Shown: in pieces, positions 4,383 through 8,294 of the stretch
Layout of the letters: each line of letters begins with the position of its first letter
Position numbering within the stretch: position 1 is the first letter of the stretch
Translations under genes and position numbers: made by a program
Source of the DNA: Ginsengibacter hankyongi
Lineage (GTDB): Bacteria > Bacteroidota > Bacteroidia > Chitinophagales > Chitinophagaceae
Assembly: GCF_008710285.1 (NCBI RefSeq)
Contig: NZ_VYQF01000005.1
Location: 62,001-126,000 of the forward strand
Reading direction: 5' to 3'
DNA: 64,000 bases
The notes under the pieces: model-generated
Database searches by the model: none
What the model was told of the DNA's origin: nothing
Seen by the model: the letters and a program-made list of their open reading frames with translations, nothing else

Positions 4383-5132
4383 ATGAAAGATAATTTCTCA
4401 AAACAATCTGATTTATATTCCAGGTTTCGCCCGGGCTATCCAAATCAATTGTTTGATTTTCTTATTCCATTACTTCCCGACAAAAAATATGCATGGGACT
4501 GTGCAACCGGTAACGGCCAGGTTGCAACGAAACTTTGCAAATATTTTAAAGAAGTATATGCAACCGATTTAAGCGCTGCACAAATTAATAATGCAGAAAA
4601 GAAGCAAAATATTTTTTATAGTGTTGAAAGCGCAGAAGAGACCTTGTTGCCTGATAATAAGTTTGATTTAATAACTGTTGCACAGGCAATTCATTGGTTT
4701 GATTTTAAAAGTTTTTACAAACAGGTAGACAGAACTTTAAAGCCCGGTGGTGTTATAGCTATAATAGGTTACGATGTGTGTAGCATAAATAAAGAGATTA
4801 ATTTTTTAATTAATGATTTCTATAGCAAAACCATAGGCCCTTACTGGGATAAAGAAAGAAAATACGTTGAGGAGCATTACACAACGATTCCTTTCCCTTT
4901 TAAAGAAATAAAAACGCCCCGCTTTTCTATCAGTTATAAATGGGAGTTGGAGGAGCTAATTGGTTATTTAAATACATGGTCCGCGGTACAGCATTACACC
5001 AGGAAAAATAATGAAAACCCTGTTACAAAAATTTCAGAGCAATTAAAAGAGGTTTGGGGAAGTGTTGTAAAAAGAAAAGTTACATTTCCCGTCTTTATGC
5101 GAACGGGCATAAAACAAAATATTACATTTTAG
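4383..5132 (+). CDS. Class I SAM-dependent methyltransferase
   Basis: 249 residues with a Rossmann methyltransferase core. The SAM loop is WDCATGNGQVA at about residues 38-48, motif II is VYATDLS, and FDLITVAQAIHWFD and LKPGGVIAIIGY complete the fold. The AQAIHWFD motif is typical of the Methyltransf_11 group that includes trans-aconitate and Crg1-like enzymes (family knowledge). The substrate cannot be told. It converges on the ATP-grasp/SET fusion gene and overlaps it by 11 bases, so it is not in that operon. A near -7 box, CATATTTG, sits 5 bases before the ATG. Confidence 0.85.
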   Translation: MKDNFSKQSDLYSRFRPGYPNQLFDFLIPLLPDKKYAWDCATGNGQVATKLCKYFKEVYATDLSAAQINNAEKKQNIFYSVESAEETLLPDNKFDLITVAQAIHWFDFKSFYKQVDRTLKPGGVIAIIGYDVCSINKEINFLINDFYSKTIGPYWDKERKYVEEHYTTIPFPFKEIKTPRFSISYKWELEELIGYLNTWSAVQHYTRKNNENPVTKISEQLKEVWGSVVKRKVTFPVFMRTGIKQNITF

Positions 5133-6549
5133 TTTTTTCACGAAACGTTATTGAGTTTTCGTCAATACCCTGGACTACCTTTTTGCAATTTTCCGCTCCG
5201 CAATTACAGATAAAGCTTTCCATTTCATTATTAAGGAAGGTTGTATAATCGAGGGTTAATTCTTCGCCCGCAGCGATAGGTTTTATCGCCGTTACATTTA
5301 AACCTGAATAGACGGTATTGGGATTGCATGAATGATTTTGAGGTGACCATTCTGCAGGTGAATTGTCCCATAAAATATATACTTCGCTGCTAACCGGCCA
5401 TGCATATCGTCTAAAATTTTCCCGCTCATCAATGTTCCAGTTTTGTTCAACAAATTTTTTTGTTACAAGGCGGTGAGGCTTTTCTTCGCTGGCAAAAATA
5501 ATTTCTCCGGGGGCTAAGTCTTTGGCTGCATAAATTCCATAGCCGGATATAGCGTTGCATTTCACAAAATATTTCTTTTGCTTTTCTGCATGCCGGTAAA
5601 TTCCTTCTTTAATAATCTTTTGTAGGAAACCTTCTTTGCCGGCCGGGTCGTTCATTAATATATAATCGGCAGAACCTTCATAACCTTTGTCGTAAAAAAC
5701 GGAGCAGGTAAAATTAATTTCAAGAAAAAATATCTCTCCTTGATCATTTACTCTAAAATCCATCCGGGCATAACCCACACCATTAAACGCTTTAAATATT
5801 TTTGCGGCGCTTTCTTTTAGCTGACTGGCAAGTTCTGGTTCTTTACAAGGAATATTACACTCTTCGTGCAGTTCAGAAGTTTTAAGTGAATATGTTTTAA
5901 ATTTTTTTCCTTCGGGAAAAACAAACTCAAGCGGATTATAAACTGTACAATTATTTTTATCTCCTGCTTCTGCAACAACCAAAACTGTAAACTCCCGCCC
6001 CGGAATATATTCTTCCACTAAAAGTTCCTGGTAATCTTCTAAAAGCTCATCAATTTTTTTCTTTAAATTCTTTTCATTCTTCACAAGAGAGTCCGCATTT
6101 ATACCAAGACTGTCGCCTGCTTTGGCTGGTTTTATAAACAGGGGAAATTTTAATTTAGCAATCACCTCACTTATCTGATCAACGTGTTTTACTAATATAT
6201 AAGCCGGGGTTTTTACACCGCATGTATAAGCAACATATTTCATTAATTCCTTCGGCGGGTCATATAATAAGGGTGTCGGGCCGGTGTAAGGAAGATTAAG
6301 CATTTCAAAAGAATGAATAACATCAATTGAAGGAACTGACCATTCAAGGTATCCTTCGCACAGATTTACGAAAATGTCATAATTTTTCTTTCTGAGTTCC
6401 TTCAGTCTTTTATAAGTAGAAAGTTTATTTAGAAAAACATGATCAACTATATCGCCGGGAAGTAATGAAGATAAGTTTCTTGGCGGATCGTAATATTTAT
6501 AATCAACATTAGTTGTGGAATAATCAGGTTGCAACACACAAATTTTCAT
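5122..6549 (-). CDS. ATP-grasp ligase fused to a SET-domain methyltransferase
   Basis: A 475-residue two-domain protein. Residues about 1-318 form a D-Ala-D-Ala-ligase-like ATP-grasp domain: Lys140 in LFIKPAKAGDSLG, EEYIPGREFTVL at 179-190, Asp264 in ARMDF, and Glu277 and Asn279 in FFLEINF as metal ligands. Residues about 328-460 form a SET domain: SGYGIYAAKDLAPGEII, NHSCNPN at 405-411, catalytic Tyr435 in LDYTT, and a post-SET zinc cluster CNCGAENC at 448-455. ATP-grasp enzymes form amide bonds through acyl phosphates, and SET enzymes methylate lysine with SAM. Having both in one chain suggests ligation and N-methylation in one pathway. It is the last gene of the minus-strand cassette, 88 bases after the free ATP-grasp gene. 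Substrate unknown. Confidence 0.88.
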   Translation of the reverse strand: MKICVLQPDYSTTNVDYKYYDPPRNLSSLLPGDIVDHVFLNKLSTYKRLKELRKKNYDIFVNLCEGYLEWSVPSIDVIHSFEMLNLPYTGPTPLLYDPPKELMKYVAYTCGVKTPAYILVKHVDQISEVIAKLKFPLFIKPAKAGDSLGINADSLVKNEKNLKKKIDELLEDYQELLVEEYIPGREFTVLVVAEAGDKNNCTVYNPLEFVFPEGKKFKTYSLKTSELHEECNIPCKEPELASQLKESAAKIFKAFNGVGYARMDFRVNDQGEIFFLEINFTCSVFYDKGYEGSADYILMNDPAGKEGFLQKIIKEGIYRHAEKQKKYFVKCNAISGYGIYAAKDLAPGEIIFASEEKPHRLVTKKFVEQNWNIDERENFRRYAWPVSSEVYILWDNSPAEWSPQNHSCNPNTVYSGLNVTAIKPIAAGEELTLDYTTFLNNEMESFICNCGAENCKKVVQGIDENSITFREKTKM

Positions 6550-6637
6550 TGTATAAAATTTATTTTTTTATTACACTAATTCGTTAGTCAAATTCGTGCC
6601 ATCCTGTTTAGGGTGAATATAATTTAATTGCTATTGA

Positions 6638-7759
6638 TTAAATAAGTTCGAGTTGTTTTGCTTTTTTTTGCTTTCCTATATGTTTATGAGTTAAAGCATT
6701 TCTTATGATAGTAGCAATCAATGAGCCAAATGAATTGCCCGAGAGCCGAAGTATGGCACCGATGGAAGTAAAATTTTCGTCATCAGATAAACCGCATTGT
6801 GCGTTTACCTCAAGCACATACATTTTGCCGGTGTTTTTATCCATTCTTATATCGATGCGGCCATAGCCTTTTCCTCTTACAGCTTTATAAGAGTCAAAAC
6901 TTATTTTGCAAATATTTTTTATAAATGATGGATCGGGCGTGCGGTAATTATAAAAATCTTCATTGTTATTTACCGGCATTTCTTCTTCGTACATTTCCCA
7001 AAGCCTGTCGAACGATAAAAATTTTTCATGAGGCGGCAGCGAACTATTAAAAGCCCGTTCTACCGGCATATAAATTTTACATTCCCTTGCATTCGCGCTA
7101 TTGCCTACAATAAGTGTTGTAAACTCCGGGCCATCGATAAATTTTTCTGCAAATACACCACCATCAACAAGGTTCCATCCGTGATATCCTTTTAGCAGTT
7201 TATCATATTGGAGTAATAATTCTTTTGAATTTTTTACTACTGAATGAATACCTACACCAAGGCTTCCGCCTGAGATAGCAGGTTTTACAATAACAGGATT
7301 ACCCAGATTTTTGAAAATTGATTTTGCATCTCCAGGATCATCGGTAATAATTTGCCAGGGTGGAGTAGCAACATTTCGCGCTTCAAAAACCTGCTTCATT
7401 ATTATTTTGGAAGTGGTGGTGCGATAAAAATATTCATCAGATCCGGTAAAGCATAAGCCGCTTTTTTTAAGATACCTTATAATGTTTACACCGGGAGCAT
7501 TATTAATTTCATCGCCATCGCAAAGATTGATTATGACTGTGTTTTCGGGCTGTGAACCTGCAATGATTGAATCTATAACAGGTTTATAATTTTCATTGGT
7601 TACCTGCTGCCATTTCCATTTCAGGTTTAGTTCTTTAAAAGCGACGGTAAATTCTTCTATGCTTTGAGTGTAGTCGTAATAGTAGTCAAGATTAACATCA
7701 TTTGTTTCAACAAAGGGAGCTAAAACCCATACAAAAAGTTCTTTATGAAATGGAAGCAT
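6638..7759 (-). CDS. D-Ala-D-Ala-ligase-like ATP-grasp protein
   Basis: 373 residues of ATP-grasp type. Visible motifs are VIVKPAISGGSLGVGIHS (ATP-binding Lys and glycine loop), FAEKFIDGPEFTTLIVG, GYGRIDIRMD, and MYVLEVNAQCGL with the Glu and Asn metal ligands. It resembles Ddl but is longer, and the N-terminal region is unlike true Ddl, so cell-wall D-Ala-D-Ala synthesis is unlikely. It sits 25 bases after the SET gene and 88 before the ATP-grasp/SET fusion, so the three are probably one operon. It could join an amino acid or peptide to a product that the SET domains methylate, which is inference. Confidence 0.85.
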   Translation of the reverse strand: MLPFHKELFVWVLAPFVETNDVNLDYYYDYTQSIEEFTVAFKELNLKWKWQQVTNENYKPVIDSIIAGSQPENTVIINLCDGDEINNAPGVNIIRYLKKSGLCFTGSDEYFYRTTTSKIIMKQVFEARNVATPPWQIITDDPGDAKSIFKNLGNPVIVKPAISGGSLGVGIHSVVKNSKELLLQYDKLLKGYHGWNLVDGGVFAEKFIDGPEFTTLIVGNSANARECKIYMPVERAFNSSLPPHEKFLSFDRLWEMYEEEMPVNNNEDFYNYRTPDPSFIKNICKISFDSYKAVRGKGYGRIDIRMDKNTGKMYVLEVNAQCGLSDDENFTSIGAILRLSGNSFGSLIATIIRNALTHKHIGKQKKAKQLELI

Positions 7760-7784
7760 AATTTTTTTAAGATCATTTACATGA

Positions 7785-8294
7785 TCAAACTTTTTGCAGG
7801 TGAGGTATGTTTAATTTTTGCATGATGAAATCAGTAAACTTATAATGAAGAATGACTTCCTGTGATAAAAATGAAGCACCTTGTATTTTATGAAGACAAT
7901 TATTTGCGCCGCAAAAACAATTAAATGGCGATGCCATTGCAAATTCTGTTGAAGGATAAAAAAATGTTAGCTCATCTCCGGGCAAAATATCTTTCAAGCA
8001 ACTTAATTCCATTCTTGTTGTATCAAAAAAAACATTGGGGTTGCAACTGTGATTAATGTATTGCAAAAATTCTGGATCAAGGATGATGTGGGTATCATCG
8101 TTAACCTGGACTGTATATTTATTAGGAGTGGCAAGGGTTTCAGCCGCATCGAACTTTGAAAAAATGTTGCCTGCATTGTACGATACCGTTGCATGTAAAG
8201 ATTTTTCTCCGGTTATGTTATTTTGGTATAGAGTAGCAAAACCATAATGAGATATTTTGGTAAGGTTGGGTAGGGAGTAAGCAGAATATGTCAT
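7785..8294 (-). CDS. SET-domain protein (putative protein lysine methyltransferase)
   Basis: 169 residues, essentially only a SET domain. NHSCNPN lies at residues 81-87, LPGDELTFFYPSTEF supplies the catalytic tyrosine (Tyr113), and the post-SET zinc ligands are Cys126, Cys128 and Cys133 with Cys84. SET enzymes transfer methyl groups from SAM to lysine side chains. Bacterial SET proteins are uncommon and their targets largely unknown. It is first in a three-gene minus-strand operon with two ATP-grasp proteins, the last of which carries its own SET domain, so the two may act on the same substrate or as a pair. Confidence 0.85.
   Translation of the reverse strand: MTYSAYSLPNLTKISHYGFATLYQNNITGEKSLHATVSYNAGNIFSKFDAAETLATPNKYTVQVNDDTHIILDPEFLQYINHSCNPNVFFDTTRMELSCLKDILPGDELTFFYPSTEFAMASPFNCFCGANNCLHKIQGASFLSQEVILHYKFTDFIMQKLNIPHLQKV

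Follow-up and report, generated by a model that had tools for sequence, protein, structure and literature searches.

BurB, a small single-domain SET protein, methylates free methionine (PMC12542666, PMC7496086, available parts of both texts). As far as the available text of the BurB paper goes, all natural-product methyltransferases found before that work belonged to classes I and III (PMC7496086). In the available text on the eukaryotic protein TTLL12, SET-like and ATP-grasp-like (TTL) domains are described on one chain (PMC3520985). Here we analyse a stretch of 64,000 nucleotides from Ginsengibacter hankyongi (contig NZ_VYQF01000005.1, positions 62,001 to 126,000; hereafter the window, to whose numbering coordinates without a locus label refer), which carries a cassette of three genes encoding a stand-alone SET-domain protein (SETs), a stand-alone ATP-grasp ligase resembling D-alanine-D-alanine ligase (Ddl; GRASP) and a protein with both domains (FUSED). 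FUSED thus shares its pair of domains with TTLL12, from which it differs in that TTLL12 is eukaryotic, carries the SET-like domain first and is reported to be inactive and to be missing critical residues (PMC3520985, available text), whereas the motifs of FUSED are intact.

Clusters that make peptides with ATP-grasp ligases are already known, as is one SET enzyme acting on a small molecule; their combination was not found in the literature covered. Pairing “ATP-grasp” with “SET domain” in the open literature, subscription papers lying outside this coverage, returned TTLL12 as the only relevant case, and no open paper was found for “SET domain” with “D-alanine-D-alanine ligase” or for “ATP-grasp” with “SET domain methyltransferase”. 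Iyer, Aravind and co-workers have reviewed ATP-grasp ligases and the evolution of SET domains, and such an operon may be mentioned there. The available text of a review of bacterial SET proteins mentions no ligase, operon or fusion.

A conserved three-gene cassette

The positions of the open reading frames (ORFs) bear out the first-pass annotation of a minus-strand operon, SETs-GRASP-FUSED, that runs from 8294 to 5122, its genes lying 25 and 88 bases apart. Its parts, the genes being assigned from ORFs and Pfam, are:

7785..8294, minus strand: SETs, stand-alone SET-domain protein of 169 aa, first gene of the operon
7760..7784, minus strand: spacer of 25 bases between SETs and GRASP
6638..7759, minus strand: GRASP, stand-alone Ddl-like ATP-grasp ligase of 373 aa
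6550..6637, minus strand: spacer of 88 bases between GRASP and FUSED
5122..6549, minus strand: FUSED, Ddl-like ATP-grasp ligase with a C-terminal SET domain, 475 aa

The three genes recur together, as the idea of a functional cassette put forward in that annotation implies. FUSED was found in 83 of 294 genomes sampled from the home family, spread over 37 of 101 genera, and SETs in 79 of the 294, namely in 77/83 FUSED carriers vs 2/211 non-carriers. GRASP, which was sought in 80 of the 294 genomes (59 FUSED carriers and 21 non-carriers), is present in 59/59 of the former and 0/21 of the latter. Fisher values, which ignore phylogeny, are 7.9e-61 for SETs, 9.9e-20 for GRASP and 1.8e-4 for a lone ATP-binding cassette (ABC) gene described below. 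Since each genome contributes only a limited number of scored candidates, these searches may miss weak members.

Gene order is equally regular. GRASP always lies 5' of FUSED on the same strand (59/59), at a distance of 6 to 1706 bases (median 61), and SETs lies upstream within 3 kb and on the strand of FUSED in 66 of the 77 genomes that have both. SETs sits just downstream of FUSED in G023, and on another contig or far off in 10 of the 77 (1.7 Mb away in G040); that it stays with FUSED even when unlinked we count in favour of one shared pathway. Two genomes have SETs without FUSED, which a contig end within GRASP explains in G190 and does not explain in G191. Conversely, six FUSED carriers are without SETs: three at contig ends (G195, G253, G260), two with an intact locus (G315, G335) and one, G212, outside the loci inspected.

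Closer to home, 18 of 99 genomes sampled by kinship, the window's own counted, hold full-length FUSED relatives at 58-100% identity, with a patchy distribution even inside the genus, and a contig scan for the cassette returned 5 loci, all from close relatives. The closest FUSED protein with a named record (82% identity) comes from a Chitinophagaceae metagenome assembly. Compared with a same-genus relative (L042), NG86 dN/dS is ~0.06 for SETs, 0.09 for GRASP and 0.07 for FUSED. Co-occurrence and adjacency over many genera, together with these low ratios, indicate that the cassette is more than a chance association. Distances among the cassette proteins are also correlated (r 0.73-0.83, 0/2000 permutations), a pattern that shared descent gives as well.

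FUSED comprises an ATP-grasp part (~residues 1-320) and a SET part (~330-460), both above the Pfam cut-offs (Dala_Dala_lig_C, E 1.1e-25; SET, 8.2e-11). GRASP matches Dala_Dala_lig_C (4.1e-16) and SETs matches SET (4.1e-09), again above cut-off, the latter match covering the C-terminal half of the model only. That all catalytic motifs are intact, as had been noted from the window alone, holds across three alignments of relatives with 19, 17 and 19 rows, the window included, in which the motif residues are invariant. These are K140, R262, D264 and N279 in the ATP-grasp part of FUSED, where E277 is nearly so; N405, H406, C408, Y435, C448, C450 and C455 in its SET part; K159, R301, D303, E317 and N319 in GRASP; and N81, H82, S83, C84, Y113, C126, C128 and C133 in SETs. 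SETs and FUSED hence show the marks of the SET superfamily: a profile match above cut-off, NHSC, the catalytic Tyr and the post-SET cysteines.

The operon is flanked by a convergent plus-strand gene for a class I methyltransferase (4383-5132), whose end overlaps that of FUSED by 11 bases, and upstream, on the operon's strand, by a gene with a membrane-type adenylate/guanylate cyclase domain (PF00211; 8501-9595). Neither is a conserved operon partner: among 27 other loci, the two adjoin the cassette in L042 alone. A promoter scan was uninformative, with 13 sigma-70-like sites vs 18.9 expected, Bacteroidota promoters being outside the models. A role in anti-phage defence was rejected, as SETs, GRASP, FUSED and the lone ABC protein match no PADLOC model; so was a phage origin, 50,697 phage records giving no SETs match at 1e-4, and a plasmid-borne fusion, since none of the 493 plasmid records that match FUSED covers 80%.

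The ligase domains stand apart from Ddl

In Ddl, roles at the D-Ala site belong to an N-terminal Glu, HG, the phosphate-loop Ser-Ser, an omega-loop Tyr and the product-binding PG..S. Aligned with the genome's own Ddl (G000:C31) and with other Ddls, FUSED and GRASP retain the ATP-binding Lys, Arg-x-Asp and Glu-x-Asn, while the N-terminal Glu, HG, the first phosphate-loop Ser, the omega-loop Tyr and PG..S are replaced, the last by an invariant Cys (C282 in FUSED, C322 in GRASP). The sites are therefore not ordinary D-Ala-D-Ala ligase sites, a point that the first-pass annotation had singled out for checking. Scores against the NCBIfam model for Ddl (TIGR01205) are 105.8 bits for FUSED and 74.7 for GRASP, both below the cut-off of 245.65. 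In the tree, the ATP-grasp domains of FUSED and GRASP form one clade apart from Ddl (28 rows, 100/99 support), which splits into sister groups of GRASP (12 rows) and FUSED (16 rows), the program flagging long branches. The fold itself is that of Ddl: the AlphaFold2 model of FUSED (mean predicted local distance difference test score, pLDDT, 82.2, lower in the SET part) has Ddl-type ligases as all 50 of its listed PDB matches. FUSED and GRASP accordingly resemble Ddl in fold, in ATP/Mg residues and in the Arg-Asp and Glu-Asn motifs and differ from it in D-Ala determinants and clade; substrate residues, score and tree together led us to reject an ordinary Ddl.

These results bear on a cell-wall role, in which the cassette would supply alternative D-Ala-D-X ligases altering peptidoglycan ends. 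By Pfam and NCBIfam, GRASP and FUSED do fall within the region of the Ddl family, although far under the NCBI curated cut-offs, but the genome already has its own Ddl, the D-Ala determinants are replaced in a separate phylogenetic group, and the conserved gene set holds no van-type or cell-wall gene; we regard such a role as highly improbable. Slightly more doubtful still is a graspetide-like ribosomal peptide system with an overlooked precursor. Graspetides are made by ATP-grasp enzymes, but the ligases here are Ddl-like, graspetide ligases being outside this comparison. The window had been described as without a precursor peptide, and no widely shared candidate emerged from 1115 small ORFs around 28 cassettes, of which the 15 largest families were inspected. 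Among these 15, the larger families look like GRASP or the ABC gene read in a different frame and the others occur at no more than 3-4 loci, on which grounds a precursor of a ribosomally synthesised and post-translationally modified peptide was rejected.

The other Bacteroidota matches of the ligases are single or tandem Ddl-like enzymes, of which 26 loci were examined. A lysine-2,3-aminomutase-type gene adjoins 9 of them, accompanied in 8 of the 9 by a GNAT gene and another ligase; 3 of the 26 have neither an aminomutase-type nor a C39-peptidase-like neighbour. Two arrangements recur:

L091:9311-13256, L092-L094, L143, L144, L154, L157 (8/26 loci): operon of two Ddl-like ATP-grasp genes, a GNAT gene and a lysine-2,3-aminomutase-type radical SAM gene
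L095, L096, L138-L141, L145-L151, L153 (14/26 loci): a C39-peptidase-like gene paired with a divergently oriented gene for a Ddl-like ATP-grasp enzyme

The tandem-ligase operons resemble the cassette in having a ligase pair, and are among the better ATP-grasp matches outside it, but they have no SET domain and lie on branches separate from FUSED and GRASP.

Among solved structures, the stand-alone SET protein is nearest to BurB

Against solved structures, the SETs profile matches BurB at 1.6e-18, with the runner-up at 3.4e-8, and the single sequence does so at 2.1e-16, with the runner-up at 1.3e-5. The AlphaFold2 model of SETs (pLDDT 90.5) gives the same order, three BurB chains coming first (2.1e-10 to 1.8e-9) and SETD2 next (1.5e-6). 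With BurB (PDB 9L4T, 9L4V) SETs shares its small single-domain build, the post-SET cysteines and, in a pairwise alignment, equivalents of Thr73, His93 and Tyr124 (residues as numbered in the available text of PMC12542666). The two differ in their partners, which for BurB are a decarboxylase, a transaminase, a dehydrogenase and a nonribosomal peptide synthetase-polyketide synthase (NRPS-PKS), to judge from the available text of PMC7496086. The lysine methyltransferases KMT2/MLL, ASH1L and SETD2 have the SET fold, NHSCxPN, the catalytic Tyr and the post-SET CxC...C in common with the cassette; they differ in their chromatin context and in that SETs is nearer to BurB.

In a tree of SET domains, SETs (19 rows) and the SET domains of FUSED (18 rows) form separate clades with 100/99 support each, deeper forks being weak, so that neither arose from the other by recent copying. 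Four other SET proteins of this genome fall outside both clades, and three BurB-like plasmid proteins make up another (100/98, in a tree without BurB itself and with weak deeper forks).

Small plasmid SET proteins gave 9 matches, of which four loci were viewed. One is a PKS/NRPS locus with an aminotransferase and an aldehyde dehydrogenase; in a second the gene lies beside a pyridoxal phosphate-dependent decarboxylase; the third (L136:6949-8861, Rhizobium bangladeshense plasmid p7) has an asparagine-synthase-related gene, a small SET gene and an S-adenosylmethionine (SAM, AdoMet) decarboxylase gene in series; and the fourth, from Streptomyces, shows no clear pathway. By analogy, such neighbourhoods lend support to small-molecule roles for bacterial SET proteins in general and would point to no specific substrate for the cassette.

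Two further regions were observed. L127:8464-10317 (G540) encodes a 617-aa fusion of SET, AdoMet decarboxylase and spermidine synthase, which likewise supports small-molecule roles for bacterial SET proteins in general; it adjoins a 483-aa SET protein to whose remainder no domain is assigned. L058:7650-18530 (G098) holds a SETs relative (48% identity) with no FUSED nearby, and also a Ddl-like ATP-grasp gene, a GNAT-like gene and a 2-oxoglutarate-Fe (2OG-Fe) dioxygenase gene.

ABC genes and carriers beyond the family

The first-pass annotation had seen no transporter, which stands for this window and fails for relatives, where an ABC gene adjoins FUSED in many. In the home family, a lone ABC membrane-domain gene (PF13748) follows FUSED after 95-176 bases in 23 of the 59 carriers tested, and lies on another contig in a 24th genome (24/59 carriers vs 0/21 non-carriers). 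An example directly 3' of FUSED is seen at L088:10617-11474 and in its relatives.

Across the phylum, 17 of 395 sampled genomes have full-length FUSED: 5 in the home family, 9 in genus g178, and G548, G549 and G673. Of these 17 carriers, 15 have stand-alone SETs, as does a single non-carrier (G595); additional SETs matches in G548 and G540 fall inside longer fused frames. In the g178 family, FUSED is present in 6 of 61 genomes and SETs in exactly those 6. A full ABC exporter adjoins FUSED in 5 of these 6, the sixth locus stopping at a contig end, and matches none of the 55 other genomes at 1e-150; the gene order is SETs-FUSED-ABC-small SET. One locus of this second lineage adjoins magnesium-chelatase genes, which suggests green sulfur bacteria.

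Ligase, tailoring enzyme and transporter, the gene content that characterises NRPS-independent ATP-grasp clusters, are hence all present in the ABC-bearing lineages, the transporter being absent from this window. Export appears likely, from gene content, in some carriers, a statement that does not extend to this genome. In G548 (L082:4040-12098), the FUSED relative lies between a gamma-glutamyltranspeptidase gene and a three-gene set encoding an N-formylglutamate amidohydrolase, a MATCAP peptidase and a glutathione-synthetase-type ATP-grasp enzyme, all on one strand, and we count this neighbourhood in favour of the pathway proposed below.

A candidate pathway and its alternatives

We give about even chances to an NRPS-independent pathway for a peptide or peptide-like amide that combines ATP-grasp ligation with SET methylation. 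GRASP and the N-terminal domain of FUSED would activate carboxylates with ATP and form amide bonds between amino acids other than D-Ala, SETs would methylate an amino-acid building block with SAM, and the SET domain of FUSED would methylate the growing or finished product, ligation and methylation being coupled on one chain. The ABC protein encoded beside FUSED may export the product in some lineages. In favour of this pathway stand the co-occurrence and adjacency of the genes, with the FUSED-SETs link repeated in a second lineage, the sister ligase groups apart from Ddl with their retained ATP-binding residues and replaced D-Ala determinants, the nearness of SETs to BurB, the small-molecule settings of some other bacterial SET genes, the ABC genes beside FUSED and the lack of a widely recurring precursor candidate. 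Amide formation, a small-molecule substrate, the order of steps, which is a guess, and export are predictions from sequence. Of the two outcomes that the first-pass annotation had offered, the peptide-like product is the one we favour, while lysine methylation was not established, BurB being nearest to SETs.

Several observations weigh against this pathway. In structure comparison BurB is only modestly ahead of lysine enzymes (TM-score to the SETs model 0.62-0.67 vs up to 0.60), and its rmsd (root-mean-square deviation) to the model is large, 4.5-9.2 A. Arg70, His72, Ser88, Arg133 and His138, SAM/Met contacts of BurB in the available description, are not retained in SETs, which also carries Asn81 at a position that is Leu in BurB. 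As a profile, the FUSED SET domain shows no preference (KMT2A 2.8e-11 vs BurB 4e-11), and as a single sequence it favours KMT2D (4z4p 1.7e-9 vs BurB 9.4e-8). GRASP is missing from the locus in the g178 lineage, as are both SETs and GRASP beside the FUSED relatives of G548 and G673, and the full triad is therefore not universal. The lone ABC protein has no ATPase domain, its gene is absent from the window's own genome, and 35 of the 59 FUSED carriers tested gave no match to it.

Some of these points feed the main rival, which we consider unlikely, namely that the ligases attach a residue or several to a protein whose lysine the SET domains methylate. The first-pass annotation had allowed for this, and eukaryotic TTL-type ligases and SET enzymes carry out such modifications. 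The post-SET cysteines typical of lysine enzymes and the KMT2-type best single-sequence match of the FUSED SET domain fit it, as does a MATCAP-type (tyrosine carboxypeptidase) gene near the G548 FUSED relative. Yet the cassette has neither a target protein nor a small ORF as a conserved companion, the ABC genes at the locus fit a small molecule better, and SETs is closest to a small-molecule enzyme. The union of SET-like and TTL domains in TTLL12 can be cited for protein modification too, but that protein is reported inactive in both functions in vitro (PMC3520985, available text).

The carriers without a lone-ABC match would also suit a non-secreted solute or storage compound, such as a methylated dipeptide or a sulfonium/betaine-like molecule, rather than an exported signal, siderophore or antibiotic. 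S-methylmethionine, the product of BurB, is a precursor of dimethylsulfoniopropionate (DMSP), an osmolyte (PMC12542666, available text). Since exporter-type ABC genes stand beside FUSED in two lineages and the operon has no decarboxylase, aminotransferase or dehydrogenase, we hold this to be quite improbable.

Returning to the peptide-like amide pathway, we propose, tentatively and at somewhat less than even chances, that it represents an undescribed class, independent of ribosome and NRPS, in which SET enzymes, a group known mainly for methylating histone lysines, would have free amino acids or short peptides as substrates, a ligase-methyltransferase fusion takes part and some lineages have a dedicated ABC exporter. 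If so, SET domains would be small-molecule tailoring enzymes well beyond BurB, cultivable bacteria would hold a compact system for a new metabolite, and FUSED would be a bacterial architectural counterpart of the eukaryotic SET-ATP-grasp fusion TTLL12. Many Bacteroidota bacteria carry this conserved gene set, which, to judge from its genes, probably builds and methylates a small molecule.

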